A stretch of 22,599 nt of DNA from a virus. Positions 1,065-17,532 of this stretch are shown one piece after another. The notes beneath the pieces were generated by a model that saw only the letters and a program-made list of their open reading frames with translations, had not been told where the DNA came from and searched no databases. The stretch lies in the IMG/VR virus record IMGVR_UViG_3300003690_000123, positions 1 to 22,599 of that record. One strand, written 5' to 3'. Positions within the stretch are counted from its first letter, which is position 1; every line of letters begins with the position of its first letter. The position numbers were made by a program, and so were the translations under genes.

Positions 1065-2051
1065 ATGCCTCAGTATAGAGTCACATCCCCTGACGGAAGA
1101 GAGATTGTTGTCAATGGTCCCGAAGGATCAACGCAGCAGGATGCGGTTCGTTTCGCACAACAGCATTTTGCCGCTCAGGCTACGCAACAGCCAACTGCCC
1201 CACCAGAAGAAGAAGGACTCTTCTCCGGGGTTGGAGATTTCTTTACTGGCACATGGCAAGCAGGCGCACGAGGCTTCGGCTCACTAGCTGAAATACCGGG
1301 TGCTTACAGTGCGGCTTTAGGCTCCCCGGAATCTTTCCAGCGAGAAAAAACAGAGAGAGAAGCAAGGCAGCAGAGGCTAGCCTCAGAAGCTCCTCCTATG
1401 AATCTTGCGGAACTCAAAAGATTATGGGAAGAGGAAGGTGTCCTCACCGCTGCCAGCCGGATACCTCAGTTTGCTTCCGAAGCGATTGCTGGCTCTCTTC
1501 CATTCATGGCCGCTCCCTTTAGCGCGGCAATAACTGCTCAAGCATTTGTCCCCCCTGTCGGTCTTCCCGGTTTGGCTGGTAAAGCTGTTGTTGGCGCAGG
1601 CGCATTCATAGGAACTGCTGCCCTCCAGTTCTTCGGCATGAATATTGGCCGTCAAATGGAAGAAGGGGCGGAAACGCAGGAAGAACTAGACATAGCGAGG
1701 GCTGCTCTGGCCGCGCCAACACAGGCAGCAGCAGAGTACTTCATATTCATGGCGACAGGCGGTCTTGGTAAACTTGTCAACCGCAAGGCTGCTGAAGAAG
1801 CAGCAAGAACTTTATTCCAGTCCATCAAAAGGGGCGGTGCCAGAGGCGCGGCAACGGAAATCCCCACTGAGATGTATCAACAGATGGCAGAGCGTTGGAC
1901 GGCAGGGCTAGACCTTACCTCCGACGATGCTCTGAATGCGTGGGCCTCCTCCGCCTCCTCCACCGAAAGAGGCAGCGCCAACGGCACAGCCAACAGCGCC
2001 TCAACTCTTACTACCAGCCCCTCCCACAACTCCCCCCTTACTCCTCCTTGA
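1065..2051 (+). CDS. N-terminal part of a giant phage internal/ejection protein (frame-split)
   Basis: This 328-codon frame starts with ATG after a GAGGGA ribosome binding site. Residues 1-40 have the pattern YRVTSPDGREIVVNGPEG followed by QDAVRFAQQ, a short domain I know from the N-termini of giant phage internal virion proteins. Residues about 140-230 are Ala/Gly-rich and hydrophobic, as in membrane-penetrating ejection proteins. From about residue 293 the sequence becomes a Ser/Thr-rich low-complexity tail that looks like out-of-frame translation. The +1 frame over the same bases gives a proline-rich linker leading directly into the 2599-codon frame. I infer that this is the front of the same protein, separated by a frameshift, a deletion or a sequence error near 1936-1950. 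It could instead be a separate short protein. Confidence 0.7.
   Translation: MPQYRVTSPDGREIVVNGPEGSTQQDAVRFAQQHFAAQATQQPTAPPEEEGLFSGVGDFFTGTWQAGARGFGSLAEIPGAYSAALGSPESFQREKTEREARQQRLASEAPPMNLAELKRLWEEEGVLTAASRIPQFASEAIAGSLPFMAAPFSAAITAQAFVPPVGLPGLAGKAVVGAGAFIGTAALQFFGMNIGRQMEEGAETQEELDIARAALAAPTQAAAEYFIFMATGGLGKLVNRKAAEEAARTLFQSIKRGGARGAATEIPTEMYQQMAERWTAGLDLTSDDALNAWASSASSTERGSANGTANSASTLTTSPSHNSPLTPP
1936..2051 (+). other. Frame-transition zone between the two parts of the giant protein
   Basis: The upstream frame (positions divisible by 3) runs to TGA at 2049-2051. The downstream frame, one base ahead, is open from 1936 right after a TGA at 1933. Translated in the downstream frame, the overlap reads as poly-Pro followed by Pro/Ala/Leu-rich repeats, which is typical of a linker. 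The upstream frame gives Ser/Thr/Asn-rich noise. The upstream frame ends in CCT TGA, and a +1 slip there would read CTT GAG into the downstream frame. No Shine-Dalgarno sequence precedes the ATG at 1936. The zone fits a programmed +1 frameshift, a natural deletion or an assembly error; the sequence alone does not decide. Confidence 0.55.
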
Positions 2052-5000
2052 GGATCATCGCTTAGACAGCGATAAAATCATAGGCCCGGATGAAGATGTA
2101 TCCGTGCTGGCTAGCCAAACGATTGACCAACTTGGCAACAATCTTCCTTTGGCATTTAACAGGGGTGTTATCACCACTGATGAAACAGGCACGCCTGATG
2201 TTTACAGGGTAAGGCCGGATGTAATTGAAGTCACTGATGAAGAAGGGGAAGTTGTTCGTAATGCCAAGGGAGAACCAACATTTCTTCCGCAAGGGGAATA
2301 CCGTGGGTTTTTTGTAGAAACACAACATGGCGTAAGGGCGTCTCCTTATTTTTCAACTCAAGCACAGGCAGAAACATTCAAGGATGAATTAAACATTGGG
2401 GTTAATAACATCCTGCGGAAACAGGATGAGGCAGAGACGGAGTTACTGGCTACGGAAGCGCTTCAGGAAGCAAGGTTAGATGAGCAGAATGATTTGCTCA
2501 GGGCTGCTGCCATTCTTACCCGTCCCGACACGGTGATAGACTTTGATGACATGGCTACGGCTGATGCAATCAGGCTTAACCAACATATGAATAGCACAAT
2601 GCGGAATCAGTTTGAGTCTGGAGATACGGTCCCGGTTGAGTTGCTTGCTGAAATTGGGCTTGACCCGGATAAGATAGATGCGTTGCTCCCTACTCCACCT
2701 GTGGAAGCGGATCTTGATTTCTGGACTAACACTGCTGTTGCAAGTCTTGCCTCCCAGAAGAATATTAAAATAGATGACCCCGGATTTGAGCGGCTTGCTT
2801 CCCGCAGGACAGGCACTAAAAATTTAGAGAGAATGACAGCCACTCAGCTTTGGTATCTCTCTCGTGCATTGAATGAAATGCCAGTGCTGCCGGGGACTGG
2901 TCCTCAATCCCTACCATTTATTAAGCGGCCAATATTTACTTCTTCACAGTACAACACTGCCGTTGCTTCTGCCCGCAATATGCCTGCGCGTCCTGAAAAA
3001 AAATTAAGACAAGGTGAGATTCTAAAGTCTGATTTAACGAATGCTCTTGAAGGGAAGAAAAGAAGTAAGCCCGGTGTAGCAACTGAATCTATTATTGAAC
3101 GGGCACTAAAGAGGAAAGATTTATTTGCGTTAGAGCGTAGGCCCGGAGCTTACATTCATAAAGAATTTCTCAATGTCACACCTTGGCATGAGCAGTATAG
3201 AGTGCGCCCGACTGCTGTCCCTCCAAAACTTGCGGAGAAAATAGCTGAGAGGAGGAAGGCCGGGAAACCGCCGACCCAAAATCAGCTTCGTCAACTCCAG
3301 AAAGGAATACGGGAAGAAGATATAGAGGGCACCACTCCTTTTACTCGCGGTGAGCCAGTGGAAGTGGAAGCCAGAGCGGCGGAAGCTGCTGCGGCAGAAG
3401 CAGCGGCAGCAGAGGCCGAGGCCGTTGGAACTATAAGTCCATTCAGGGAAAAATTCATCAGGGGTGTACACCCGGAAGGCCGTGTATTTAAGCGCGGTGT
3501 TGCGGTGCGGCCTGCTCGCCCAATTCGTGGTTTAAGAACAGGCGAAATAGTTGGTCCTCGTAAAGGTATTCCTATTAGAAGGGATGATACAAGTGCGTTG
3601 GATATGGATGCTGCGGCCAAGGCTTTCAAAGCAAGGCTGGCCCGTGCTGAAATAAGCAATGAGATTAACCGCAGGCTTGCCACTGTTGGTGGCAGGAAAG
3701 CTGTGGTCGATGCGCTTAGTAAGGCAATCAAATCCAGACTGGTCAAGTACAGGAAGACAATCCCTGACTACACCAAAAAAATAGATGGTGTTTCTGTTAG
3801 CTTGGTGAACACCCTGAGCGGGAAGAAGGAAGCTGATATTGATTGGGAAGGGAATAGGCTTCTTATTTCTGTGGCTCTGGATCAACTGGACACTAAAGAA
3901 ACACTCAAAACCGCATCTAGTAAATTAGCTAATGTTATCAACCATGAAATGGTTCACGCCCTGCGTGACAAAGAATTTATATCTCCCAAGGACTGGAAGC
4001 TACTTACCAAGTTTGTAAAGAAGCGGGCCACTGGTCTGAGGCAAACACTGAAAGACGACACTGTCATAGAGAAAGACAAGACATACTATGAAGCTGCCCA
4101 GATAATATATAAAGATGAGTACCACGACAGGAGCAAAGCTGATCGTGAGAACCTGATAGTAGAAGAAGCTATTGCTGATGCCTTCAGGGATTGGACAGAG
4201 GGCAGAGGTGCAACCGGGAAGCCTGCATCTTTGTTCCGTCGTATTGTTGATTTCTTTATTGGCCTCAAGAATGGCCTCACCAACGCCAACATCAGGAATG
4301 CCAACCAAGTATTCATGGGTCTCTACGGGGAGCCGGAAACACCAGCGCCACGCCCGGTTGCAGCAGCGGAGCAAGTAACTCCTGAAGATGTGGAGAGGGC
4401 TGAGAAATACACTGCAAGGATACGCCAGACAGAGGCTGACCTGCCAGATGCGGTGAGAGGAAGGCGTGCCTCTATAGCTAGAAGTATAGACACTCCGGTA
4501 ACCCCTGCGGTTCCTAGAACAACATCTGAGATATTGGATTTTATCAGGGCGAATCCAGAAGGGTTTACATTAGACATTGAGGGGCGTCCCACTCCGCTAA
4601 CTGGTTATGTTGTCGCCCCGGTTAAAGCCGCTGAAACAAAAGTTAAAGCCAAAGAACTTAATGAAGCTATTGTTGATTCTTTTATAAAAGATTTAGTGCA
4701 GTTGCGTGCCATTAGTCAGCGGCCTGTTTATATGGGGGGCTGGCTTAGTCCTAAAGATAATATGTATTATCTTGATGGGGTACAAATTTATGATAATTTG
4801 GAGGAAGCCTTATATCTAGCTGATGTTGCTGATCAAACTGCGATATGGGACTTAGGGAAATTAAATGAAGTATGGACAGAAGAAGGGATCGCAAGCCTCC
4901 AAGAGGCTGGAGCTTACAGTGATAGACGACACGACGAGCTTCGACGAAGCCAAGGGGAAATTGCTAGGCGCTTTACACCGGGCGGGGATACCCGTGAAGC

Positions 5001-8000
5001 TCGACCCGGATTCCCGGTTCAGACAGGACGGGAAGCCACGGGACTTGATAGAGAAACTTATGACAGAAGACGGGCTAACCAGAAAACAGGCCGTGAGAGC
5101 GATCTCAGATACACTCCTGTAGAAACAGGAGAACTTACTGGGGACGGCAGAGGCCATACTGAATTTTTTTCCTTCGTTACTCGCGGGACTGAAGGCCGTC
5201 CCACTACCAAACAAGAATACGAACCTGTCATCACACTATCAGACGAGTTAGGATTTGATGCCGAGTATCAATCTCATCTCGGTAATTTTGATGCACATAT
5301 TGCAACCAGCATCCCCGGCTTCAGAGAAGTGCAAGCTGCCGTTGGTGAAGCATTAGTAAAAAGTTATGGTGCTGACACTGACGTACTTGATATTGGCGCT
5401 TCAGAAGGCGCACTGATCAAGACTATTTCTTCCCGCTCTGGCGGCAATATCCGTACTGTTGGTATTGATCCTAACGCAGCGATGGCCGAAACCTTTGAGA
5501 CAGGGACTCCTGTTGCAGGAGCAGAGTATGAAATTTCTGCTCTGGGTTCGGCAGGCCAAGAAGGCAAAGTTGCGTGGCGGGATGACGATGGATCATTCGT
5601 TAGGTATTACCAACCTGACAGAAAATTTGATGTCGTCCATGAAGCGATGGTGTTCCAGTTTATTTCTGGGGACCGTGAGCCACAGATCCAACGCATGAAG
5701 GAAATGGCGAAGGATGATGGGTTAGTTATTATTGAGGAGAAAATCTTTGATAATGAAGGAGAGGCACGCAAACAATGGAATAAGAATGAATACAAGAAAG
5801 ATAAATTCAAGCGTCAGTATTTTACGGAGAGAGACATAAGCAAGAAGCGTGAAGAAACTTTGGTGGGAATGCACGACAATATGATTTCTACCACTGAGAC
5901 TGAAAACATTCTTGCCAATAACTTTGGGGCAGTAGCGCAGTTTTGGGACAGTGGGAATTTCAAAGGGTATGCTGCTTCCGATAACTCAGCTACTCTTGAT
6001 AAGTTTCTTTCAAATCTCCAGTCACTAGAGAGTGATTTCTCTACTACTAAAACTCCCCGTCAGCTAGCCAGAAGAGCATCCATAGCTAGGAGGGTAGAGG
6101 TAGGCAAACCTTCCCTGACCATTGAGTCTCTTTACGGAGGCTTCAGTACTCCAGTTGCCCCCAATGCTCTTGATCCTATGTACCAAACTAATAAAAATTT
6201 AATTTGGCAGGATGAAGCTGTCCCTGTCTTTATTCCCCACGGTCATAATGAATGGAGTGATGACCTTCTTAAAAATATAGGGCTTGGGAAAGCGCACGCT
6301 GACCTTCATCTCACCGATATAAAAAAGAACACCCCGTTCAATTCTGTTGAGGAAATGCTGGAAGCAGCGATGGAAGCCTATTGGCCCCACCGTAATAACC
6401 CAGAGGTAGGTGGGGTTACCATAACTCCAATGCCCAAAAAACAGAATGAGATAGAAAAGATTAGGATGGAGTGGGATAGCCCCGATATGGGGTATCCGTC
6501 AGTGTTTGTGTTTCATCGGATTCCATTCTCTGCCTATCCCGGTCTCTTGACCAGACGTCCTGATCTTGAAGGCCGTCACATGATGTCCTTGATTACAGCG
6601 TGGAATGGTCCCTCAAATAAAGAGAGTGACGCCCCGGTTCCGATGCCTGCCATCAGCCCAAGGGCAGAGCGCACTCCGGCAATGGAGATAATAGTACAGA
6701 AGGGAGTCAATGATGCTGTCGCTGCCAACTACAGGGGAAAAGAAAGACTAACCCTGTCTCCCTCCATACGGAAAAGATATTCCATCAATCGTGGCATTGA
6801 CAAGATGGACCCGGAGATGAAGGAAGCTGCCGAAAAAGTTATGAATATCGGTGGCGACCAATCATTCATGGACAAAATGTTCTCCATGTTCCGCGCCACT
6901 GATCCTTCCGATCATACTTTCGCAACAAAGTTTAGGCAGAAAATAGTTGATAGGTTTGCTGGCTTCATAGCTCGTGGAATACAGGTGCAAAAGCTCCGCA
7001 AGGAGATGGGTATCGAGGAAGAGATAGCTTTGGATTCAGCCACGTCCAGTGCGGCTGGTTTGCTCACCAGAAAGTCAGGCATCACTGCTGCCGGTATTAC
7101 AAAAGGGTTCCTTATCAGGGATCGTGGCAGGATCTATGCCCTGCATGAAGGGCTTATAAACCATAGTGATCCTGCTGTCGCAGAAGCATACAAGGCAGCC
7201 TATGACAGGATGGTCGAAGAGACTGCCTACATTGACCCCGTTACGAAGGAAGAAGTACGGATAGAGTCTCCCTCAGATCTTGCTGGTCTTGTTGATATCC
7301 TAGCGGAGATAGACAAGGAACAGATATGGGCTGAGTTCTTCCTCTACGCAGCAGCCAAGAGAGCGCAACGCCTTACAGAAGAAGGACGGGAGAAAACATT
7401 TACCGATAAAGATATTGAGATTGGCCTGCGTGCTGGTGAAATGCACCCATCCATAGACCGTGCCTACCGCAAGTATCAACTATGGAATAACGCCGTAATC
7501 AATATCATGCGTGACAGCGGTGTGATCAGTGATGAAGCCGCTGCTTTATGGAAGGCCAACGCAGACTACCTCCCCTTCTATCGTGAACTTTATGATGACG
7601 CTGGCGTTACCTACGAAGTAATAAGCCCAGAAGGAGTGGCGACAAGAGACGTAATGTATCGGTCTATGAAAGACCCAAACAACAGGGTGCTTTCCAGTTT
7701 CTACAGCACGAAGACTCCAAGGGAACTGAAGGGCGGCAAGCCTGTGTTCTGGGTGATGGTCAATAATGTGTCTGACCACAAGCGTTATCTTTCAAAGTCA
7801 CAACCATTGTATGACCGGGTAAAGGAATTGCGGGAGCGTAATGGGCCTGATGTCCAGATAAGAATTGCTGCCGACAATCAGCGCATTGCTGATCCACTGA
7901 ACAACATGCTGCGTAATCTTGACGCCGCTGTTACTTCCTCCCTCCAGAATATGCTGGTCCTCCGTGGCATCAGGGATCTCAGGGAACTTGGTCTGGCGTC

Positions 8001-9735
8001 AGAACCTGTCAAGAGTGATGAGCCTCCCGGCGGAGAAGTGCATCCGTCTCTGATTGGAGTGCGGGTAAACGGAGACACTTGGTGGTACGAGGTGCAGGAC
8101 AGCCTGATGCTGGACTCCCTGATGATAACGGATGATGTGAATATGCCAGCCCTTGGGTTGCAGGCTGCTCCGGCTACCCTGCTCAGGGAACTTGTTACCA
8201 AAGACCCGGCATTCATGGCAGCGAATATGCTCCGCGACACCCTCAGTGCATGGACAACATCTGGGGTGGGGTCAGCTATTGTAGGCCCGAATGTAATAGG
8301 CACTCTGAAAGGATATGGTCAGGCGTTGCTCAACTCCTCCAGTGCTGCGGCACTAGAAGCCAGTGGTGCAGTGGGCGGTTATGATTTCAAGGGTGATCCC
8401 AAGAATGCAATCACGGCATTCAGGAAACATCTAAGGATGAAGTCTCCTCACAAGTATCCGGGCCGTGCGTTATGGGAGTGGGCCAACAAACTGAGTGGCG
8501 CATCCGATACAGCTACCCGTGTTGCTGTGTATGAGCGTGTTCTCAAGGAAACAGGGGATGAGACTGCGGCAATCATTGAAGCTCTTGAGGTAATTAACTT
8601 CAGCCGGAAAGGGTCCAGTGCTGCCATCAGATATCTAACGGCAGTCATTCCATTCCTTAACGCTCGTATCCAAGGACTTGATGTTCTCTATCGTGGCATG
8701 TCAGGCCGCATGACTCCTCGCATGGACAGAGCAACACGTCAGCGCAGATTCTATTTCCGGGCAGCACAAGTCATTGCGCTCACCATTGCGTACAACATGG
8801 CTCTCGGTGATGAGGAAGAGAACCCGTGGTATCACAACGCTCCTGAATATATCAAGGATAACTACTGGATCATTCCACCTACATGGTTCGGGATGGATGT
8901 AGGCCCAGAGACTCCGGCCTATCGCATACCCATACCATTCGAGGTGGGTGTGTTGTTCAAAGTTATACCAGAAAGAATTATGCGGCTAATAGATGGTGAG
9001 ACTGATTTTACCCAGACAAGAGAATCTGCTCTGCGCCATCTTACAACTACGTTCAACGTCTCCTTCCCGCAGTGGTTCCAACCTATATTGGAAAGCATGA
9101 CTAACCATAACTGGTATGCGAGCAGACCAATCGTTACTTACTGGGGCGAGAGAAATGAGTCATGGCTTGCTGACCCTGAGTATGTATCGCCACTGGCCCT
9201 TGAATTGTCAGAAGTTCTGGGAGAAAAAATGAGAGTGCGTTGGTCGGCAGAGCAGATAGATCACTTGCTGCGTGGGTACACCGGGACACTCGGTAGCTAT
9301 GCACTGATGGCTGCTGACTCTGTTATGAGAAACGCTGCTGGTATTCCTAAACGAGCGGATAGAAGACTGGATCAAATGCCGCCTATGGCACGCTTCCTTC
9401 AGGAACAACAGGGACGTGGCCCGGTGCAGGCTTTCAATGAACTTTATAATGAACTGGATATTTTTAATAATACACTAAAAGAACTTTCAGAAACTGACCC
9501 TGATCGTGCTGGTAAGTACATGGGGTCAAGAGCCAATCTTGCTATATATAAAAAAGAGATTGCCCGTGTTAAGGATGAGCTTGATGGCCTTCGTAAATTC
9601 AGGCGTCAGGTACAGGCAGATCGGGGGATGAGCGGCGAGGACAAGAAAGATATGCTAATGAATTTGGATGAGCTATCCAATGAGATTGTTTCTCATCTCA
9701 CATCGGAAAGGTCTACAATTCTCAGGAGGCAGTAA
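1936..9735 (+). CDS. Giant polyvalent virion protein: zincin-like, methyltransferase, nuclease-like and LPD38-type regions
   Basis: This is a 2599-codon frame, probably continuous with the preceding ORF. Residues 1-40 are a Pro-rich linker and about 476-500 an Ala/Glu-rich linker. At 670-674 there is a zincin-type HEMVH motif with a possible third ligand at E743/E744 (LIVEEAIAD). At 931-936 VYMGGW begins a module I know from phage proteins but cannot name. At 1150-1158 VLDIGASEG is a class I SAM-methyltransferase motif I, with an acidic motif II (GIDPN) after it. Residues 1454-1458 (HADLH), followed by a ...ITAWN strand, recall phage Barnase/EndoU/RelE-type nucleases, weakly. Residues about 2030-2300, including NFSRKGSS (2221 on) and FLNARIQG, resemble the large polyvalent protein domain LPD38, with a hydrophobic stretch near 2276. 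The C-terminus is helical. RRASIAR-like motifs occur at 843, 1379 and 1613. The protein is probably ejected with the DNA. The ATG at 1936 has no ribosome binding site and is unlikely to be the true start. Confidence 0.85.
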   Translation: MRGPPPPPPPKEAAPTAQPTAPQLLLPAPPTTPPLLLLEDHRLDSDKIIGPDEDVSVLASQTIDQLGNNLPLAFNRGVITTDETGTPDVYRVRPDVIEVTDEEGEVVRNAKGEPTFLPQGEYRGFFVETQHGVRASPYFSTQAQAETFKDELNIGVNNILRKQDEAETELLATEALQEARLDEQNDLLRAAAILTRPDTVIDFDDMATADAIRLNQHMNSTMRNQFESGDTVPVELLAEIGLDPDKIDALLPTPPVEADLDFWTNTAVASLASQKNIKIDDPGFERLASRRTGTKNLERMTATQLWYLSRALNEMPVLPGTGPQSLPFIKRPIFTSSQYNTAVASARNMPARPEKKLRQGEILKSDLTNALEGKKRSKPGVATESIIERALKRKDLFALERRPGAYIHKEFLNVTPWHEQYRVRPTAVPPKLAEKIAERRKAGKPPTQNQLRQLQKGIREEDIEGTTPFTRGEPVEVEARAAEAAAAEAAAAEAEAVGTISPFREKFIRGVHPEGRVFKRGVAVRPARPIRGLRTGEIVGPRKGIPIRRDDTSALDMDAAAKAFKARLARAEISNEINRRLATVGGRKAVVDALSKAIKSRLVKYRKTIPDYTKKIDGVSVSLVNTLSGKKEADIDWEGNRLLISVALDQLDTKETLKTASSKLANVINHEMVHALRDKEFISPKDWKLLTKFVKKRATGLRQTLKDDTVIEKDKTYYEAAQIIYKDEYHDRSKADRENLIVEEAIADAFRDWTEGRGATGKPASLFRRIVDFFIGLKNGLTNANIRNANQVFMGLYGEPETPAPRPVAAAEQVTPEDVERAEKYTARIRQTEADLPDAVRGRRASIARSIDTPVTPAVPRTTSEILDFIRANPEGFTLDIEGRPTPLTGYVVAPVKAAETKVKAKELNEAIVDSFIKDLVQLRAISQRPVYMGGWLSPKDNMYYLDGVQIYDNLEEALYLADVADQTAIWDLGKLNEVWTEEGIASLQEAGAYSDRRHDELRRSQGEIARRFTPGGDTREARPGFPVQTGREATGLDRETYDRRRANQKTGRESDLRYTPVETGELTGDGRGHTEFFSFVTRGTEGRPTTKQEYEPVITLSDELGFDAEYQSHLGNFDAHIATSIPGFREVQAAVGEALVKSYGADTDVLDIGASEGALIKTISSRSGGNIRTVGIDPNAAMAETFETGTPVAGAEYEISALGSAGQEGKVAWRDDDGSFVRYYQPDRKFDVVHEAMVFQFISGDREPQIQRMKEMAKDDGLVIIEEKIFDNEGEARKQWNKNEYKKDKFKRQYFTERDISKKREETLVGMHDNMISTTETENILANNFGAVAQFWDSGNFKGYAASDNSATLDKFLSNLQSLESDFSTTKTPRQLARRASIARRVEVGKPSLTIESLYGGFSTPVAPNALDPMYQTNKNLIWQDEAVPVFIPHGHNEWSDDLLKNIGLGKAHADLHLTDIKKNTPFNSVEEMLEAAMEAYWPHRNNPEVGGVTITPMPKKQNEIEKIRMEWDSPDMGYPSVFVFHRIPFSAYPGLLTRRPDLEGRHMMSLITAWNGPSNKESDAPVPMPAISPRAERTPAMEIIVQKGVNDAVAANYRGKERLTLSPSIRKRYSINRGIDKMDPEMKEAAEKVMNIGGDQSFMDKMFSMFRATDPSDHTFATKFRQKIVDRFAGFIARGIQVQKLRKEMGIEEEIALDSATSSAAGLLTRKSGITAAGITKGFLIRDRGRIYALHEGLINHSDPAVAEAYKAAYDRMVEETAYIDPVTKEEVRIESPSDLAGLVDILAEIDKEQIWAEFFLYAAAKRAQRLTEEGREKTFTDKDIEIGLRAGEMHPSIDRAYRKYQLWNNAVINIMRDSGVISDEAAALWKANADYLPFYRELYDDAGVTYEVISPEGVATRDVMYRSMKDPNNRVLSSFYSTKTPRELKGGKPVFWVMVNNVSDHKRYLSKSQPLYDRVKELRERNGPDVQIRIAADNQRIADPLNNMLRNLDAAVTSSLQNMLVLRGIRDLRELGLASEPVKSDEPPGGEVHPSLIGVRVNGDTWWYEVQDSLMLDSLMITDDVNMPALGLQAAPATLLRELVTKDPAFMAANMLRDTLSAWTTSGVGSAIVGPNVIGTLKGYGQALLNSSSAAALEASGAVGGYDFKGDPKNAITAFRKHLRMKSPHKYPGRALWEWANKLSGASDTATRVAVYERVLKETGDETAAIIEALEVINFSRKGSSAAIRYLTAVIPFLNARIQGLDVLYRGMSGRMTPRMDRATRQRRFYFRAAQVIALTIAYNMALGDEEENPWYHNAPEYIKDNYWIIPPTWFGMDVGPETPAYRIPIPFEVGVLFKVIPERIMRLIDGETDFTQTRESALRHLTTTFNVSFPQWFQPILESMTNHNWYASRPIVTYWGERNESWLADPEYVSPLALELSEVLGEKMRVRWSAEQIDHLLRGYTGTLGSYALMAADSVMRNAAGIPKRADRRLDQMPPMARFLQEQQGRGPVQAFNELYNELDIFNNTLKELSETDPDRAGKYMGSRANLAIYKKEIARVKDELDGLRKFRRQVQADRGMSGEDKKDMLMNLDELSNEIVSHLTSERSTILRRQ

Positions 9736-11440: not shown

Positions 11441-11570
11441 TCCAGAAGGATTGCATAACTGTCCGTGGTGTGGGGCCGTTACCAGAGTGGAGTTTGTTCA
11501 CGGGCATTATGAATGTACTGCTTGCCATCGCTCAGTCCACGACTGCTGCGAAGGGATCATGCAGCAATAG
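11385..11570 (+). CDS. Small zinc-ribbon protein
   Basis: The 61-residue protein has two CxxC knuckles, C26-P-W-C29 and C44-T-A-C47, separated by a VEFVHGHYE strand, and a terminal CC at 54-55. It looks like a small zinc ribbon, a type I have seen in alphaproteobacterial and phage genomes, with no known enzymatic role. The ATG at 11385 overlaps the dioxygenase gene by 56 bases and has no good ribosome binding site, so a later non-ATG start is possible; the Cys-rich core is the reliable part. The stop lies inside the convergent integrase gene (14 bases of tail-to-tail overlap). Confidence 0.6.
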   Translation: MFLSPTSDTKDGRRSSSFDPEGLHNCPWCGAVTRVEFVHGHYECTACHRSVHDCCEGIMQQ

Positions 11571-12408
11571 ACAACTTTCCAATAGCGTTCTTGAGGTAGT
11601 CGGGCGCGAATTTTGCATAGACCTGTTCGGTTATTCTGCTGTCCCGATGCCCCAGTAATTTTGCCACCTCGATCAGAGGCACTCCGTCCCGTACTAACTG
11701 CGTGGCCACTGTGTGTCTGAGTGTATGAGGTGTAACGTCTGATAGTTCTGCTTCGTTTAGTATTTTTTCCCATGTCTTTCTAAAGTCTCTAACGCGGCGG
11801 CCATTGTTGTTTACTACATACAAACTGTCAGAATCTAACTCATGTAGCAACTGTTCCATCTCCGGCCCTATGGGAATAATGGCTCTCCCTTTCCGCCTTC
11901 CTGATAGCGGCCCCTCCTGATTGAAATCTATGTAGCCTTCCACCCATCTTACTTGCTCCCACCTAAGCGACAGGATCGCCTCTTTCCTCTGCCCAGTGAG
12001 CAGAGCAACGGCAACGAAAGCATACACATGGGGATATTTCTTAGCTGCCAGCAGCAGGCGTGAACATTCTTCTGGAGTAAGCCAGCGTTGGCGAGGAGGG
12101 GGAGAGGGGAGCCTTGGTATAACTATTAGCTGGTCAATATATCCCTGAACATTGGCCCACCTCAATGCTGCGTTCAGAACTCCGACCTCTCGGTTAACAG
12201 TACCAGCGCTGGCATTTCTTTTCCTAATGTAAGAGCTTACCTTCGATACGGTAAGCATTTTTACAGGGACGTGGCCTAACTTGGGCCGCATCTGAACCCA
12301 TGCAGAAGCAGGACGCATGTGGTCAATGGCTAGGAAATTGATATGCTCAGATAAATATCTATTTACCACATCTCCTACAGTGGTTATCTTATTCATGGTG
12401 ATGCTCAA
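11557..12408 (-). CDS. int: Tyrosine-family site-specific integrase
   Basis: The 283-residue protein has the full catalytic set: R141 (LLTGQRKEA), K173 in the beta-hairpin, H228-x-x-R231 (HTLRH), H254 (LLGHRD) and nucleophile Y264 (ITEQVYAKF). The N-terminal half (residues 10-100) is the SAM-like core-binding domain. It would integrate and, with an excisionase, excise the phage genome. The listed start is TTG with GAGGT 11 bases upstream; an ATG four codons later (12396) is the alternative. It is the last gene of the leftward operon, separated from the upstream gene by a hairpin. No tRNA gene or obvious core repeat lies next to it, so the attachment site cannot be placed. Confidence 0.93.
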   Translation of the reverse strand: MSITMNKITTVGDVVNRYLSEHINFLAIDHMRPASAWVQMRPKLGHVPVKMLTVSKVSSYIRKRNASAGTVNREVGVLNAALRWANVQGYIDQLIVIPRLPSPPPRQRWLTPEECSRLLLAAKKYPHVYAFVAVALLTGQRKEAILSLRWEQVRWVEGYIDFNQEGPLSGRRKGRAIIPIGPEMEQLLHELDSDSLYVVNNNGRRVRDFRKTWEKILNEAELSDVTPHTLRHTVATQLVRDGVPLIEVAKLLGHRDSRITEQVYAKFAPDYLKNAIGKLSIAA

Positions 12409-12435
12409 CTATCACTGTTACCTCACAAAGTTGAA

Positions 12436-12474
12436 GAGGGGGGAAGGGTTAGTCAGCCTTCCCCCTCATTTTTT
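12436..12474 (+). terminator. Rho-independent terminator between int and the RHH gene
   Basis: An 11-bp GC-rich stem (GAGGGGGAAGG, one extra G in the left arm, pairing with CCTTCCCCCTC) has a 9-10 base loop. Six Ts follow at 12469-12474 when read rightward. Read leftward, the stem is followed by TTCAACTTT, a poorer U-tract, so the best function is ending rightward transcripts that cross the integrase gene antisense. Bidirectional action is possible. The right arm encodes the last residues of the RHH gene. Confidence 0.65.
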
Positions 12475-12844
12475 GAGGGCTCTCTAAATTAACTTTAGAT
12501 ACTCCTAGTTTTTCCAATATCTTCTGGGCCAATCTATCTCCTAAAGTTTGTCCCGAAGGGAAACGAGGCTGTACGATTTCTGTTTTAAGAATAGTGAGCG
12601 CATCGTTGACGCCTTTAAAATATTCTGAGCTTCCTGTTGGCTGATCATTTTCAGGCGGAATATTTTTCTTTCTAAAATCCATAGTTAAATAATATATTAA
12701 AGCATTGCGAGCCAAAGCAGCGGGGGTTATCCCATCTTTCTTCGCACGGTACTGTGCTTCCTTTATTAAATCATTAGGAAATACAATATTCCAAGTGCGG
12801 CTAGGCTCCGTCATCCTGCGTGGTCGTCCCGTTTTTCCCGCCAT
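12449..12844 (-). CDS. Putative ribbon-helix-helix DNA-binding protein
   Basis: This is a 131-residue protein starting at the ATG at 12844, which follows GGAGG and AGGA sequences. The frame is open farther upstream but that part overlaps the DUF6378 gene and is not needed. The N-terminus MAGKTGRPRR is basic and AT-hook-like. Residues about 14-54 have a beta strand (RTWNIVFP) followed by two helices (DLIKEAQYRAKKDG and PAALARNALIYYL), the usual ribbon-helix-helix order. The C-terminal 70 residues are charged and helical and may aid oligomerisation. It could be a regulator of the early operon or of integration. No autoregulatory operator was identified. Confidence 0.6.
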   Translation of the reverse strand: MAGKTGRPRRMTEPSRTWNIVFPNDLIKEAQYRAKKDGITPAALARNALIYYLTMDFRKKNIPPENDQPTGSSEYFKGVNDALTILKTEIVQPRFPSGQTLGDRLAQKILEKLGVSKVNLESPQKMRGKAD

Positions 12845-13151
12845 CTTCCTGTGCCTCCATGATTTGTTCGTAGATATCTTCGGCAATTGCTGCGTAGCCT
12901 GCGATATCGCAGTGTGAGTCATGCGCTGGATGGTGTTGGCATCTTGCAAACTTCACAAGCCCCATCATCATGGCAACGTCATAAGGAGTAATTACCCCAT
13001 GCTTCGCCCACGATCTATTCCGCATCCACACATTCCACATGTCTGCAATGCGGGAGTGGTTGGCAGCGGCTTCCCCATATGACTCGGCCCTTGGCCCAGT
13101 CACCATGTCATGTGCTTCCTGTAACAGGTCAGCCTTGATATCATTGCTCAA
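12801..13151 (-). CDS. DUF6378-type phage protein
   Basis: The 116-residue protein contains the DUF6378 pattern: GPRAESYGEAAANHSRIADM, then ITPYDVAMMMGLVKFAR, then HDSHCDIAGYAAIAED. This domain is frequent in phages of proteobacteria and actinobacteria, and its biochemical role is unknown to me. I prefer the TTG start at 13151, with GGAG seven bases upstream, because it overlaps the stop of the preceding gene closely. The longer frame from 13193 would add 14 hydrophobic residues unlike the family. The 3' end overlaps the next gene by 44 bases. Confidence 0.85.
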   Translation of the reverse strand: MSNDIKADLLQEAHDMVTGPRAESYGEAAANHSRIADMWNVWMRNRSWAKHGVITPYDVAMMMGLVKFARCQHHPAHDSHCDIAGYAAIAEDIYEQIMEAQEDGGKNGTTTQDDGA

Positions 13152-13596
13152 GATCAGTCTCCATAAGTATTGACCGTTTAATAAATAGATCACGCATCAC
13201 ACGCCACTTACGTTGAGCAACAGGATCTGTTCTGATTTCTGATCTACTTTTTATATTGAGCAAACTTCTAACTGTGGTGGCAGCATCTTCTTCAGTTATG
13301 TTATCGGAGAATCCATTGTTCATTAGCCACTGTTGGAAGTCAGTCTCTCGGCATAACGCACCAGCAGAAACCACATCCCGCTTGGCTTGACGTTGCTCCT
13401 CGGATTCTACTGGCTGTTCGTCATCCCCGATGAGGGCCATGCCGATCATGTATCTGGAGCCTATGGGATCAGAAAGAAGTGGATTAGGTATGTCATTCGG
13501 ATGGATAACCAAGCTAAGAACAATGCCATCCTTGGATTGTCTGAGCACTGACTTGACTGCTTCAAAGCCATAGCTCAGATCTTTTACGTCAGTCAT
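13141..13596 (-). CDS. Conserved phage protein of unknown function
   Basis: The 151-residue protein resembles proteins I have seen in phage replication regions but cannot name. The N-terminal half has the pattern LSLVIHPNDIPNPLLSDPIG followed by a beta-rich MIGMALIGDD segment. The middle is helical (QRQAKRDVVSAGALC, then FQQWLMNNG). The C-terminal part reads LLNIKSRSEIRTDP followed by a WRVMRDLF helix. There are no membrane segments or metal motifs. The ATG overlaps the HNH gene stop by eight bases, so translation is coupled. Its place among recombination genes suggests a DNA-metabolism role, which is only context. Confidence 0.75.
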   Translation of the reverse strand: MTDVKDLSYGFEAVKSVLRQSKDGIVLSLVIHPNDIPNPLLSDPIGSRYMIGMALIGDDEQPVESEEQRQAKRDVVSAGALCRETDFQQWLMNNGFSDNITEEDAATTVRSLLNIKSRSEIRTDPVAQRKWRVMRDLFIKRSILMETDLEQ

Positions 13597-13852
13597 CTTT
13601 GGTTGCCTTTTCTACAAAGACCATTGGGTCTATCCCTTGCAACGCCCACCATTGCTCTTCATTACCAAGCGAATGGAGCGCCATGTGGCAGCGATGGCAA
13701 AGTGGACAGGTGTTATAATCCGAAACTTTTTTGGATAGAGCGGGATGATCAGTGAAGGTGAGATGATGGGCAACGGTGCGGGGGTCAGCACATATTAAAC
13801 ATGGCTGACCCCTTACCTTGGCGAGGTGTGATTTAGAACGGTATCTCGTCAT
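13589..13852 (-). CDS. HNH-like nuclease, DUF968/Ref-like
   Basis: The 87-residue protein has a zinc-binding HNH layout: C18-L-I-C21, H29-H30 (VAHHL), C49-P-L-C52-H-R-C55-H56, then H60, followed by a WWALQGIDP block. This matches the compact DUF968 (YbcO/Ref-type) HNH endonucleases found in phage recombination modules. In such modules they are thought to act on recombination or replication intermediates. The start ATG lies inside the codons for the acidic tail of the SSB-like gene. The neighbours (ERF, SSB-like, RusA) support a role in homologous recombination. Confidence 0.85.
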   Translation of the reverse strand: MTRYRSKSHLAKVRGQPCLICADPRTVAHHLTFTDHPALSKKVSDYNTCPLCHRCHMALHSLGNEEQWWALQGIDPMVFVEKATKDD

Positions 13853-14207
13853 CGAAATCTGGCGCTGCTTCTGGCGTTACTGCTTCTTCTTTCTTTTCTG
13901 GTTTCCATTTTTCTTCCAACCAGACTGCCAGATAATCACCAGCTTTTTCACCAGTGTATTTCTTCCCCGCTATTGAAACCTTGATAACCTTTTCACCCAT
14001 AGTAGCACTACGTCTGCTGCTATCAGTGTCACCGCTTTTAAAAAGGTTAATCAATCCTTCCAGTTGCGGCTTGGTCATTTCCAAATCCCCTGTCATGTCG
14101 GGCGCATACTTGTGACGGTCCGACATATCAGTTGATTTAATTTCCAATACAGAAACAGCGCGTTGGTTTCGGAAAAGATTTCCCGCTCCAAATTTTTGAC
14201 TAGGCAT
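13833..14207 (-). CDS. SSB-like protein with an SSB-type acidic C-terminal tail
   Basis: The 124-residue protein ends in DFDDEIPF, almost identical to the C-terminal peptide by which bacterial single-strand binding proteins recruit partners. An acidic Pro/Glu linker precedes it. The first 90 residues show beta-strand-like stretches (VSVLEIK, EKVIKVSIAGKKY, YLAVWLEE) but no OB-fold signature I can be sure of. The gene lies four bases after the ERF gene with a GGA-rich ribosome binding site, and phage annealing proteins commonly work with an SSB. A single-strand DNA-binding role is therefore likely but inferred. The coding end overlaps the HNH gene by 20 bases. Confidence 0.7.
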   Translation of the reverse strand: MPSQKFGAGNLFRNQRAVSVLEIKSTDMSDRHKYAPDMTGDLEMTKPQLEGLINLFKSGDTDSSRRSATMGEKVIKVSIAGKKYTGEKAGDYLAVWLEEKWKPEKKEEAVTPEAAPDFDDEIPF

Positions 14208-14210
14208 ATC

Positions 14211-15116
14211 CTATTCCCTTCCGGCTTCATTGCCGTAAACGTTGCCATCCAAAGCCGCAGCTTTTGCTGCCTTGAACATTGTCATAATGTTATCAAAGGT
14301 CTCCGGTGACTTAGCACTGATGACACCTTGGATCAGTTTGTTGTTTAACTTAAAGAATTGACCCACCCCTTTGGCGCAGGCTTGTCCATTTTCAAACAAT
14401 GGTTTGCTGTCACCACGGGTGTCATTAAGGCGTGGCATGAAGGTATGAATAATGTCCTCCACGCGACTCCAGTTGTCATCCTTTGGTGCATTAAGTTTAA
14501 TTCCGTCAGGAGTTTTAGCAAAGAGTTCTGATTTGGATGCAGTTTCTTTATCGTCCAGAAAATCTTTTCTAAAATCATCCAGACTGATTGCTGAGTCCTT
14601 AGATTTTTGAGGGCCAGTAATACTTTCGGCGTCAGTAACTTGCTGCTCGTTCAGTTCCTCGTCATCATTGTTAGAACCATCAGCATCAGGGATGGACATA
14701 TCCTCTGGCTCTGACTTGTGGAAGTACTCTGAGTCCATTTCTCCGGTGACGACTTTGAAACAGGTACGCATGAACAATTTTTCTGCATAGCTACGGGCTG
14801 ACCCCGCTGTCTGTGGCCCTTGAGCAGGATGGAAGATTGTAACAGTGTCATATTCTTCCACTGACTCACCGCTCTTGTGCAGAAGATCAAAGCCAAACTT
14901 AAAGAAGAACGTCTTGCCTTCAGCCTTGACCTCCTGCTCTTTGCAGCGCCAGAACAAGCCATGCTTCAATGCTAACTTCGGTATGGCTGCGTAGTAACTG
15001 TCGATAGGAACGTATTTAAAATTAGCGAACTTATTATCTACGCTCTTAACCAACGGGTTCTTTGAAATGTCAGCCGCCGTTGCAAACAATGCTTCTGCAA
15101 TGACTTTAGTGATCAT
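14211..15116 (-). CDS. erf: ERF-family single-strand annealing recombinase
   Basis: The 301-residue protein has the ERF core at about residues 28-130: FANFKYVPIDSYYAAIPKLA, then KHGLFWRCKE, a FFKFGFDLLHKSGE strand pair and GPQTAGSARSYAEKLFM. ERF proteins anneal complementary single strands in phage recombination and genome circularisation. After an acidic, low-complexity linker (residues 130-200) the C-terminal region is helical. The ATG directly follows the TAG of the upstream gene, with GGGGG as ribosome binding site, so expression is coupled. The SSB-like gene downstream is the expected partner. Confidence 0.9.
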   Translation of the reverse strand: MITKVIAEALFATAADISKNPLVKSVDNKFANFKYVPIDSYYAAIPKLALKHGLFWRCKEQEVKAEGKTFFFKFGFDLLHKSGESVEEYDTVTIFHPAQGPQTAGSARSYAEKLFMRTCFKVVTGEMDSEYFHKSEPEDMSIPDADGSNNDDEELNEQQVTDAESITGPQKSKDSAISLDDFRKDFLDDKETASKSELFAKTPDGIKLNAPKDDNWSRVEDIIHTFMPRLNDTRGDSKPLFENGQACAKGVGQFFKLNNKLIQGVISAKSPETFDNIMTMFKAAKAAALDGNVYGNEAGRE

Positions 15117-15995
15117 CTATTGACCCCCTAATGCTGGGGCACTAACGTCCTCACCAGTGATAAGACGCAATTCTTTTGACACATCCCATCGCAGGAAGTG
15201 ATAGCTCCGCTGTTGCTCCCTATTTAACGAACCATCTATAGCGCGGATCAACCAATTGAACTTCACTAATTTGTGAGGCTTCCTTGCCGAAGCCTTGGCA
15301 CGAGAAGCCAATTCAAAATAACGGAACAAAGGATCGTTGAGAGAGTTCCACTCTGATCGTGCAATAGCAATAAACATACGGTCTGCCACCTCTTGCCCGC
15401 ATGTTTTAGCTAGCCGCCAGAAAGCTAGTGAAGCATTTTCAAGTGAGCTTTCTATATCACAAATCTTTAGGCCGCTTCGCAATGCAGCATAAAGTAATTC
15501 CTCATTCTCTTTGAGAAACTCAACAGCTTCGTGAACTGTTGGCCGCACATTCTGCGCCCGCCAATTAGTATTTTCCCAGCGCCATATTGTATTTACTACA
15601 ACACTCAATTTACTGGAACTCTGATAGCCGTGCATCCCTAACGCGTGTCCTAATGTACGAGGACGGCTCCTATCAACGTCGTCCACACTTTCAACACCAC
15701 GAACAACGGCGGTAGTGAACGGACGGTTTGCAGTAATGCAAGCCCATAGTCTCTGTTGGCCATCCAATAGTTCTCCGGTTGGACTAAACTTCAATGTCTC
15801 CCCGTTCTGGGACCAGCGATCAGCGACCATATCTCTTGCCAATGATGCAACATGCCTGTCGCTAACAGGCCGATTGTTTTTGATATTATCCTCAAGATAC
15901 TTTGTGGCTATCTTAGGAGTGATTGTCTCAGTCGTTAGTGTAAGATTACTATTCGACTGTTTCTTTAATTGTTCATGCGGGTAAAAATCAACCAT
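15117..15995 (-). CDS. ParB-like / DGQHR-motif phage protein
   Basis: This is a 292-residue protein from the ATG at 15995, which has AAGGGGA at the right distance; the open frame to 16022 overlaps the upstream gene. Residues about 25-100 form a ParB/sulfiredoxin-like domain with the signature GELLDGQQRLWAC at 74-86, a DGQHR-type motif in which His is Gln. A VVRGV strand and a D-V-D-R-S-R-P-R-T-L segment follow. The C-terminal 190 residues are helical. Such proteins are common in phages, and some related domains have NTPase or nuclease activity; the role here is unknown. It lies two bases after the PD-(D/E)XK gene stop. Confidence 0.8.
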   Translation of the reverse strand: MVDFYPHEQLKKQSNSNLTLTTETITPKIATKYLEDNIKNNRPVSDRHVASLARDMVADRWSQNGETLKFSPTGELLDGQQRLWACITANRPFTTAVVRGVESVDDVDRSRPRTLGHALGMHGYQSSSKLSVVVNTIWRWENTNWRAQNVRPTVHEAVEFLKENEELLYAALRSGLKICDIESSLENASLAFWRLAKTCGQEVADRMFIAIARSEWNSLNDPLFRYFELASRAKASARKPHKLVKFNWLIRAIDGSLNREQQRSYHFLRWDVSKELRLITGEDVSAPALGGQ

Positions 15996-15997
15996 GA

Positions 15998-16864
15998 CTA
16001 TTCCCCTTTGTACTGAGTACAATGTTGTGCCACCCTACAATAATTGCCAGCACACCTCGCGTAGGTAGCGGGTCGCTCGACTACCTTCCGATCTGTAGAT
16101 TGACTGGCAAACTCTTGCGCTGGAGCCTCGTCATCAAATAGCTTCAACGCCCTTTGATTGTTCCCTTTATAGACTGCCCATACCGCTCGCTTCATCCATC
16201 TCTCTTCATTAGAGCAGGGAGGAAGATCATCAAATTCAGCAGCTAGTTCAGCAATACGGTGAAGCCTCACACGCTCACGCACATAGGCATCCTGTTCTTC
16301 CTCTGGCCAAAGCTGGACTGATACTTCATGTATAGGGGAAGGCGGATAGTCAGAGCGGCGGTTAGCGTTGGCTTGACGCCAATCCCTCAAGACAGCGATG
16401 ATGCTTGCGCTTGCTACCGTGAGTCCTTTAGCGTGCCTGATTAACCAAGCATAAGTGTTGAGTTGCTTCTTCCACTCAGGCTTGACACCTCCTGTCACTG
16501 CATAAACGGAAGTCATTTTATAATCTTTCAAATCCACGCTGCCATCGGCTTCGATGAATTGGTAATCCATCTGCCCACTAACGGTGATGCTATCAATCTC
16601 ATGGGTCAGGCGCTCCTCAACAACATAGCTGTTGGAAGCAGCGCCCCGAAAGACTTCGTGCATGGCCGATCCTAATATACGGTATGTCATTTCCGATACG
16701 TCTTCGGTGTATCCACCTTTATGTCGTTGTTTAAGTTGACTGATTCGGGGGCTGTCAATTAGGGTGGTAACTCGAAGGCCCTTGACCTTCTCCTGTTTGC
16801 TCTCATAAGAGAGGAGGGCACGCACCACAGGATCTGGAAGATGATGGATGTTGGTGACAGGCAT
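15998..16864 (-). CDS. PD-(D/E)XK nuclease, RecB/Cas4-like
   Basis: This is a 288-residue protein counted from the ATG at 16864; another ATG lies two codons upstream (16870). Visible nuclease motifs are GSAMHE (H69), SGQMD (D100), D111-L-K113 and the trailing QLNTYAW (Q134), in the order of RecB-type PD-(D/E)XK enzymes. Three Cys near the C-terminus (271, 276, 282) may bind metal or an Fe-S cluster, but I see no clear fourth ligand in the usual N-terminal place. It probably acts as an exonuclease producing single strands for the ERF protein. It is the first gene of the leftward operon. A promoter with its -10 box just upstream would place the transcript start at the ATG itself. Confidence 0.85.
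   Translation of the reverse strand: MPVTNIHHLPDPVVRALLSYESKQEKVKGLRVTTLIDSPRISQLKQRHKGGYTEDVSEMTYRILGSAMHEVFRGAASNSYVVEERLTHEIDSITVSGQMDYQFIEADGSVDLKDYKMTSVYAVTGGVKPEWKKQLNTYAWLIRHAKGLTVASASIIAVLRDWRQANANRRSDYPPSPIHEVSVQLWPEEEQDAYVRERVRLHRIAELAAEFDDLPPCSNEERWMKRAVWAVYKGNNQRALKLFDDEAPAQEFASQSTDRKVVERPATYARCAGNYCRVAQHCTQYKGE
16782..16809 (+). promoter_or_regulatory. Possible weak rightward promoter ahead of rusA
   Basis: TTGACC (16782-16787), 16 bases, then CATAAG (16804-16809) is the best sigma70-like match upstream of the rightward operon. It lies inside the nuclease coding sequence. The -10 box is poor (four of six bases), so this is only a candidate. Confidence 0.25.
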
Positions 16865-17285
16865 GGACATTTTATACCCAATAGAAAATAAAATTGCAAT
16901 AGACTTTCTTGCTAGTGGTAAGTGGTTGTACGAGCAAACAATTCTTGGAGAGCCAGCAAGCAAAGCCAACTCCCGTCGCATTATTAAGTCCAAAAAAACA
17001 GGAAGGATAATGTCTATCAAGTCAAGCAAGGCGCTGGCCTATGGCCATAGCTTTAAACAACAGGCAAGAAATATTAAGCCGCTAATAGATGAGGATGTCT
17101 TACTGTTCTGTCGGATATATTACTGCACTCGCAGGCCCGATCTGGATGAGAGTTTAATCTGTGACCTGTTGCAGGAAGTTGCTTATAAAAATGACAGGCA
17201 AATAAAAATGAAGATCATCTGCCACGCGCTCGATAAAAGAAATCCACGGGCTGAAATTAAGGTAGGCGTGCTTGTCCCCCAATGA
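16863..17285 (+). CDS. rusA: RusA-family Holliday junction resolvase
   Basis: RusA-like features are clear: the glycine-rich entry TILGEPASKANSRRI, then SIKSSKALAY, then RRPDLDESLICDLLQ and KNDRQI. The conserved Asp residues in the RPDLD and NDRQ blocks are the metal-binding catalytic positions, and the protein ends with a PRAEIKV strand. It would cut four-way junctions during phage recombination or late replication. Two starts are possible: the ATG at 16863 (140 residues, weak GGTGA site), which shares CATG with the divergent nuclease gene, and a TTG at 16926 directly before the conserved domain. The stop overlaps the next gene by 14 bases. Confidence 0.85.
   Translation: MDILYPIENKIAIDFLASGKWLYEQTILGEPASKANSRRIIKSKKTGRIMSIKSSKALAYGHSFKQQARNIKPLIDEDVLLFCRIYYCTRRPDLDESLICDLLQEVAYKNDRQIKMKIICHALDKRNPRAEIKVGVLVPQ
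16871..16899 (-). promoter_or_regulatory. Sigma70-type promoter of the leftward early operon
   Basis: On the minus strand a TTGCAA -35 box (16899-16894) is separated by exactly 17 bases from a TATAAA -10 box (16876-16871). The expected transcript start, seven bases past the -10 box, is 16864, the A of the nuclease ATG. If so, the first message would be leaderless. Both boxes lie in the region where the RusA frame is open on the other strand. Confidence 0.6.
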
Positions 17286-17532
17286 ACACAGGATATGGGT
17301 AGCAATTCTCTATCGTACATTAAGGGATATGATGTCTGAGGACCATCGCGTCCGTGATGAAGCAACTGCTTACCTCACACACCAGTCCAAAGACCTTTCG
17401 ATAGTCTGTGACCACGCGGATATAGAGATTACCAAAATAATACAGGCCGCAAGACACCTTCAAGATTTACCTGCCAATCAGGGTATTGTATACATCGAGA
17501 AGTTACTTAACGAGGGGGATGACCGTGAATGA
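17272..17532 (+). CDS. Small conserved phage protein upstream of the primase-helicase
   Basis: The 86-residue protein has the pattern NEHRIWVAIL...DEATAYLTHQSKDLSIVCDHADIE followed by a helical tail. It resembles small proteins in proteobacterial phages with the theme W-L-x-S-x-D-F-x-x-V-C-x-x-A, whose function I do not know. The start is a TTG inside the rusA 3' end with AGG-rich sequence upstream; an internal ATG pair (about residue 20) would cut into the conserved region. The 3' end overlaps the primase-helicase start by 14 bases, so the three genes form one transcription unit. Confidence 0.65.
   Translation: MSPNEHRIWVAILYRTLRDMMSEDHRVRDEATAYLTHQSKDLSIVCDHADIEITKIIQAARHLQDLPANQGIVYIEKLLNEGDDRE

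Follow-up and report, generated by a model that had tools for sequence, protein, structure and literature searches.

A short repeated motif at the module junctions of a giant zincin-bearing phage protein, a candidate recognition and processing site

The window analysed here, the whole 22,599-nucleotide stretch (positions 1 to 22,599) of the virus record IMGVR_UViG_3300003690_000123 from IMG/VR, encodes a giant polyvalent protein of 2599 amino acids (1936..9735, + strand; assigned by open reading frame (ORF) reading and domain matches) along which a short motif recurs. In this protein and its relatives the motif is a tag of about five residues (one basic, usually one aromatic, serine, leucine or isoleucine, and usually arginine) that stands at almost every seam between exchangeable domains. 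It lies outside the modelled folds, is confined to chains that carry one family of zincin-like domain, and is placed C-terminal to that domain. The most likely reading, held with slightly less than even confidence, is that the motif serves as a recognition site between exchangeable modules and would be read and cut by the zincin of the same chain.

The window giant carries three copies, all on the + strand: RRASIAR at residues 843-849 (4462..4482), about 173 residues past the HEMVH of the zincin-like domain; RRASIAR at residues 1379-1385 (6070..6090), past the methyltransferase-like module; and KRYSINR at residues 1613-1619 (6772..6792), where the conserved C-terminal region begins. These positions, given by the initial annotation of the sequence, were reproduced when the ORF was re-read, as was the statement that the copies use different codons (AGG CGT GCC TCT ATA GCT AGA, AGA AGA GCA TCC ATA GCT AGG and AAA AGA TAT TCC ATC AAT CGT, respectively), although copies 1 and 2 share ATA GCT. 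The giant contains the pattern [RK]R.SI.R three times; 3000 shuffles averaged 0.006 and none of them reached three, and the expectation for any repeated 7-mer was 0.013. As the pattern was picked after the data had been seen, the relatives provide the real test, which was strongly passed. Identical residues of different copies used the same codon in 268 of 685 cases, where 219 were expected; codon identity is thus near expectation and the constraint acts mainly at the protein level. The differing codons and this near-expected identity rule out recent DNA duplication as the main cause of the copies.

Relatives were found on 11 viral contigs, and 21 locus records, some of them other cuts of the same contigs, were added by alignment of the C-terminal region. 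An alignment of the zincin-like domain matched 292 relatives, 80 of which were added as locus records; used as a single-sequence query, the same domain found no relatives. A wider motif, [KR]-[FYLA]-S-[LIV]-x(-R), is present in several copies per chain in related giants with the same zincin-like (HEXXH) domain. RRxSIxR, the form first proposed, is real, its exact spelling being a local variant. In the nearest relatives (77-80% identity) copy 1 reads RKFSIDR or RRFSIDR, copy 2 RKFAIDR or TRFSIDR (the aligned counterparts in L002 and L003, respectively) and copy 3 RKYSIDR or KRYSIDR. Across the relatives the position homologous to copy 1 is occupied by RKFSIDR, RRFSIDR, KYAVRR, QFSIKR or KFSLRR. 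Only 10 columns are invariant across 17 relatives, and two of them are the serine and final arginine of copy 3, in the midst of a linker that has diverged. RRASI resembles a basophilic kinase site. Phosphorylation of the serine is unlikely, because alanine replaces it in homologous or equivalent copies (RKFAIER, RKFAIDR, YAVRR).

One spelling tends to run through all copies of a lineage: FSIDR in L003, Q[FY]SI[AK]R in L027-L031, K[FY]SLAR in L037-L043, YAVRR in L008 and L009, [KR]ASLK in L119, KFSR in L136 and [LI]PTFSR in L046. Among 135 sites in 35 proteins, copies within a protein matched one another more than label-shuffled copies did at the aromatic residue, the aliphatic residue and the one after it (a level of agreement not reached in any of 1000 shuffles); at the aliphatic position the agreement was 0.627, against 0.457±0.028 when shuffled. 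That copies are more alike within than between proteins suggests a single shared recogniser. An unbiased search for short repeats recovered the motif in L031, L038 and L008 and the variant [LI]PTFSR in L046; the search had too little power in most single proteins, the window giant included. The zincin-bearing L046, a giant from a contig of a Pelagibacter metagenome-assembled genome, has five copies of [LI]P[TN]FSR, at residues 737, 857, 1110, 1313 and 1383, apparently the same device in another spelling.

The initial annotation had suggested that the motif is a boundary signal and had proposed looking for its enrichment at the domain junctions of homologues. BLASTP segment ends, ART domains and module pairings agree in strongly supporting this view. 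In comparisons among the related giants, 1253 BLASTP segment ends lay no more than 10 residues from a motif, against 217±43 for random positions; the control pattern [KR][LIV]S[LIVM] likewise lay near segment ends, many of its sites being of the KLSLR type, that is, the same motif with leucine. ART-PolyVal domains (27 in 20 proteins) contained no motif, where 6.8 were expected. The next motif stood 9-10 residues past the end of the ART domain in 21 of 26 cases, and the preceding one mostly 21-22 or 37 residues ahead of its start. No motif flanks the ART domain in phage F116, crAss-like cr85_1 or Dickeya phage JA33, and in Dolichospermum phage Dfl-JY45 one motif-like sequence at most stands beside the domain. 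ART domains of other phages are thus mostly without the motif, which is not a property of the domain. The possibility that homologues lack the motif at equivalent boundaries was examined; they have the motif at equivalent boundaries and also at new ones.

Module exchange is seen directly in the closest relatives. In L002 and L005, RKFSIDR is followed by an extra module of about 118 residues and then by RKFAIER-DLPQVP, and L003 reads RRFSIDR-ETPQVP, a layout that implies the gain or loss of a module together with one motif copy. The interval from the zincin to copy 2 holds a methyltransferase in the window and unrelated sequence in L002 and L003. In L008 a homologue of the phrog_17808 module of the window sits after another motif copy, LYAVRR. 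Joins that fall exactly at the motif would also be expected of a passive linker, an in-frame sequence that hitch-hikes with recombining modules and is tolerated or gives short recombination homology, and the slight excess of shared codons points the same way. This explanation is nevertheless unlikely, since codon identity stays near expectation under mainly protein-level constraint, the serine and arginine of copy 3 are held invariant while the linker around them diverges, and giants of the LPD38 family that lack the zincin have modules and no motif.

Partial AlphaFold2 models were built from 12 and 17 sequences. Copy 1 falls in a stretch past the zincin with a predicted local distance difference test (pLDDT) score below 50; copy 2 also scores below 50 and copy 3 about 42-60, both outside the folded module at residues 1393-1575. 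These low-confidence stretches suggest exposed linkers. Placement of the motif inside folded domains was considered, and in the models all three copies lie outside confidently folded domains.

The zincin-like domain of the window giant spans residues ~557-782 (3604..4281, + strand; E-value 6.6e-89 with a local hidden Markov model), with HEMVH at 3943-3957 and a distal glutamate pair, EE, at ~4162-4167 (+ strand). HEXXH and the distal pair are invariant in an alignment of 12 relatives. [KR][FY]S[LIVM] was counted in 47 non-redundant giants with the zincin. It occurred 124 times from the zincin HEXXH onward (97,075 residues), against 10.6 expected, and not once N-terminal to the zincin (37,843 residues), where 1.9 were expected. 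Other ORFs of the same contigs (105,972 residues) held four sites against 6.0 expected. Replacement of serine by threonine, glycine, aspartate or asparagine, or reversal of the order, gave no excess C-terminal to the zincin in the 47 giants. The figure of 124 counts homologous sites repeatedly; grouped by flanking homology the sites represent 63 different combinations of upstream and downstream modules, still well over 10.6. The shuffles, the enrichment in relatives and these 63 combinations together rule out a chance origin.

The association extends to the wider set. Zincin-bearing giants (n=78) held 252 motif copies against 41.6 expected, and LPD38-family giants without the zincin (n=42) held 14 against 22.0. 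Three zincin-free giants had at least two copies, and two of the three came from truncated contigs. L107, which bears the zincin and no detectable C-terminal core, has copies of the KFSIAP type. The lack of enrichment in homologous zincin-free giants rules out a motif common to all LPD38 giants. The link to the zincin proposed by the initial annotation is therefore upheld by co-occurrence and by strict C-terminal placement, and is weakened by the descent of motif and zincin within essentially one clade.

Related short sequences were also observed elsewhere. Zincin-free LPD38 giants (L050-L062, L020, L079 and other gammaproteobacterial ones) often have single [FY]S[RK] sites such as RVLFSKQAMAQ and IKFSRTQ; overall, [FY]S[RK] was counted 171 times in 82 giants against 96 expected, sites in conserved domains included. 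The N-terminal half of zincin-bearing giants has recurrent sequences of the YSLQNLP or YSIEDIV type, and [KR][FY]G[LIVM] occurs there, N-terminal to the zincin, 20 times against 3.5 expected. These N-terminal sites are probably conserved domain sequence.

The motif lies after the zincin and is absent from zincin-free giants, which favours reading by the zincin; this reading is inferred to amount to cleavage. The giant would be made as a single chain. The zincin would bind exposed linkers bearing [KR]-[F/Y/L/A]-[S/A]-[L/I/V]-x-[R] and cut ahead of the aliphatic residue, and the C-terminal effector modules and the LPD38-bearing C-terminal part would be freed as separate polypeptides. Zincin peptidases generally prefer a hydrophobic residue after the cut, and the predicted scissile bond is for this reason put between S/A and L/I/V; in the window giant cuts are predicted after Ser846, Ser1382 and Ser1616. 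Processing may occur during head maturation or after injection. Held more tentatively still is the wider proposal of a self-cutting phage polyprotein, in which the in-chain metallopeptidase would read a lineage-specific code word at every seam and modules flanked by that word could be inserted or exchanged. Autoprocessing by the zincin-like MPTase domains of polyvalent proteins has been proposed, and P1 DdrB is given as a case of processing; the part of that account used here names no site (PMC5512222).

Several points weigh against cleavage by the zincin. The zincin-like domain had no match in a sequence-profile search against PDB, and its model (mean pLDDT 59.8), like that of the module at 1393-1575, had none in a PDB fold search, so that the zincin assignment rests on the invariant HEXXH and distal glutamate. 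In a tree built from the C-terminal region, the states of zincin and motif are about two changes apart; as both belong essentially to one clade, the association is not phylogenetically independent and shared ancestry could account for it. An independent-pairs test had just one supported pair. In some zincin-bearing giants the copies are few or take a variant form such as [LI]PTFSR or KFSR, and in Ruegeria phage 45A6 a zincin match adjoins the C-terminal region without any motif. The N4 vRNAP, which has an MPTase domain, is reported to be packaged unprocessed (PMC5512222), and P1 DarB, a different polyvalent protein, is a virion component listed at 251 kDa (PMC9024508).

The junction data are explained equally well, and the exposure and within-protein matching data suit any single partner, if the motif is a docking peptide that one partner binds and leaves uncut. 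The partner could be a head or portal protein, an ejection chaperone or a zincin that binds and does not cut; such binding would thread the modules or keep them in order while the chain is packaged and ejected. An LPD38 giant, gp69 of phage JC1, is indeed a virion protein, with 51 unique peptides (PMC9144972). A look for proteomics of a phage with the motif found none, and no isolated phage that carries it was identified in the phage collection. Docking is considered possible and rather doubtful, as zincin-free LPD38 giants, presumably packaged as well, are without the motif. Moreover, the one capsid-targeting sequence mapped in this class of protein, that of P1 DarB, is N-terminal (PMC9024508), and on the N-terminal side of the zincin the motif does not occur; for the same reason the packaging or ejection tag offered as an alternative in the initial annotation is the weaker option.

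Cleavage by a different enzyme, either a head-maturation protease or a host protease acting on dibasic or aromatic-serine linkers, appears improbable. Several copies do lie in lysine- and arginine-rich linkers (RRASIAR, KKRYSIDR), and many internal head proteins of other phages are cut by head proteases (PMC10052503). However, the motif is tied to chains with this zincin, and the other ORFs of these contigs show no enrichment of it. Cleavage by the SPN3US protease gp245 follows AXE (PMC10052503), and no glutamate occupies the equivalent place here: RRASIAR and KRYSINR lack the residue found right before the cut in sites of T4/phiKZ-type head proteases. The SPN3US sites resemble the motif as short sites where packaged phage proteins are cut; the motif differs in being confined to one protein and repeated along the chain.

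Viral polyproteins have a repeated short site at their seams, alike within a protein and diverging between lineages, and a protease in the same chain. The giants share the repeated seam site in likely exposed linkers at module boundaries, the matching within proteins, the divergence between lineages and a putative protease in the same chain. They differ in that the proposed enzyme is a metallopeptidase, cleavage is predicted, and the products would be injected effectors, not replication or capsid proteins. The polyvalent proteins with a zincin-like MPTase of Iyer et al. 2017 share the giant multidomain chain, LPD38, the HEXXH domain and a methyltransferase module with the window giant, and their ART-PolyVal domain is found in its relatives; the portion of that work drawn on here mentions no junction motif or cleavage site, for which the motif is a concrete candidate (PMC5512222). 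The capsid-targeting sequence of P1 DarB is likewise a short signal in a packaged antirestriction protein and, unlike the motif, is single and N-terminal (PMC9024508). No copy of the motif was recognised in P1 DarA, DarB or DdrB. The initial annotation knew of no description of such a marker, and keyword searches of the open-access literature, a limited search that might have missed one, found no earlier description either. For the question of how the enzymes in one polyvalent chain act separately, the motif offers a directly testable site. It also lets the borders of domains be located from the sequence of large uncharacterised phage proteins. If cut, the giant would be a self-processing phage effector polyprotein of modular plug-in design.

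The window giant is a phage polyvalent protein of the LPD38 class and belongs to a family of giant phage proteins that are probably injected into bacteria. Its single ORF joins the zincin-like domain to four further, unrelated modules, all on the + strand. A phrog_17808-like module (residues 881-972; 4576..4851; profile match) lies between motif copy 1 and the methyltransferase. The methyltransferase-like module (residues 1117-1348; 5284..5979) matches phrog_4752 with an E-value of 6.9e-21, matches Pfam Methyltransf_25 weakly, below the cut-off of that family, and is 36.6% identical to a sequence of Maribacter phage Panino. A folded module between copies 2 and 3 (residues ~1393-1575; 6112..6660) has pLDDT mostly of 80-95. 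The conserved C-terminal region (6793..9732) contains LPD38 (PF18857; residues 2297-2482; 8824-9381; Pfam match with an E-value of 7.5e-31 and 108 bits against a cut-off of 27). The initial placement of the copies after zincin-like and methyltransferase regions was borne out; the third module is folded in the model, its proposed nuclease identity being unconfirmed. There is no canonical motif between the phrog_17808 and methyltransferase modules, where RRFTPGG (residue 1012, ~4969-4990) and LRYTPVE (residue 1058, ~5107-5130) are possibly degenerate junction copies with threonine.

A separate ORF (1065..2051, + strand) matches the N-terminal part that L002, L003 and L005 carry as a fusion with the giant. 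The two parts share one frame in L002 and L003 and occupy two frames in the window (1065-2051 and 1936-2100), about 64 residues of these relatives corresponding to about 100 nucleotides of the window at the break, which may be a genuine deletion or frameshift, or else an assembly error. Further downstream, at 11557-19261, the window encodes a tyrosine-recombinase-like ORF (so interpreted in the initial annotation), an Erf-like annealing protein, a phrog_2139 exonuclease and a primase/helicase; these genes on the rest of the contig are consistent with a tailed phage.

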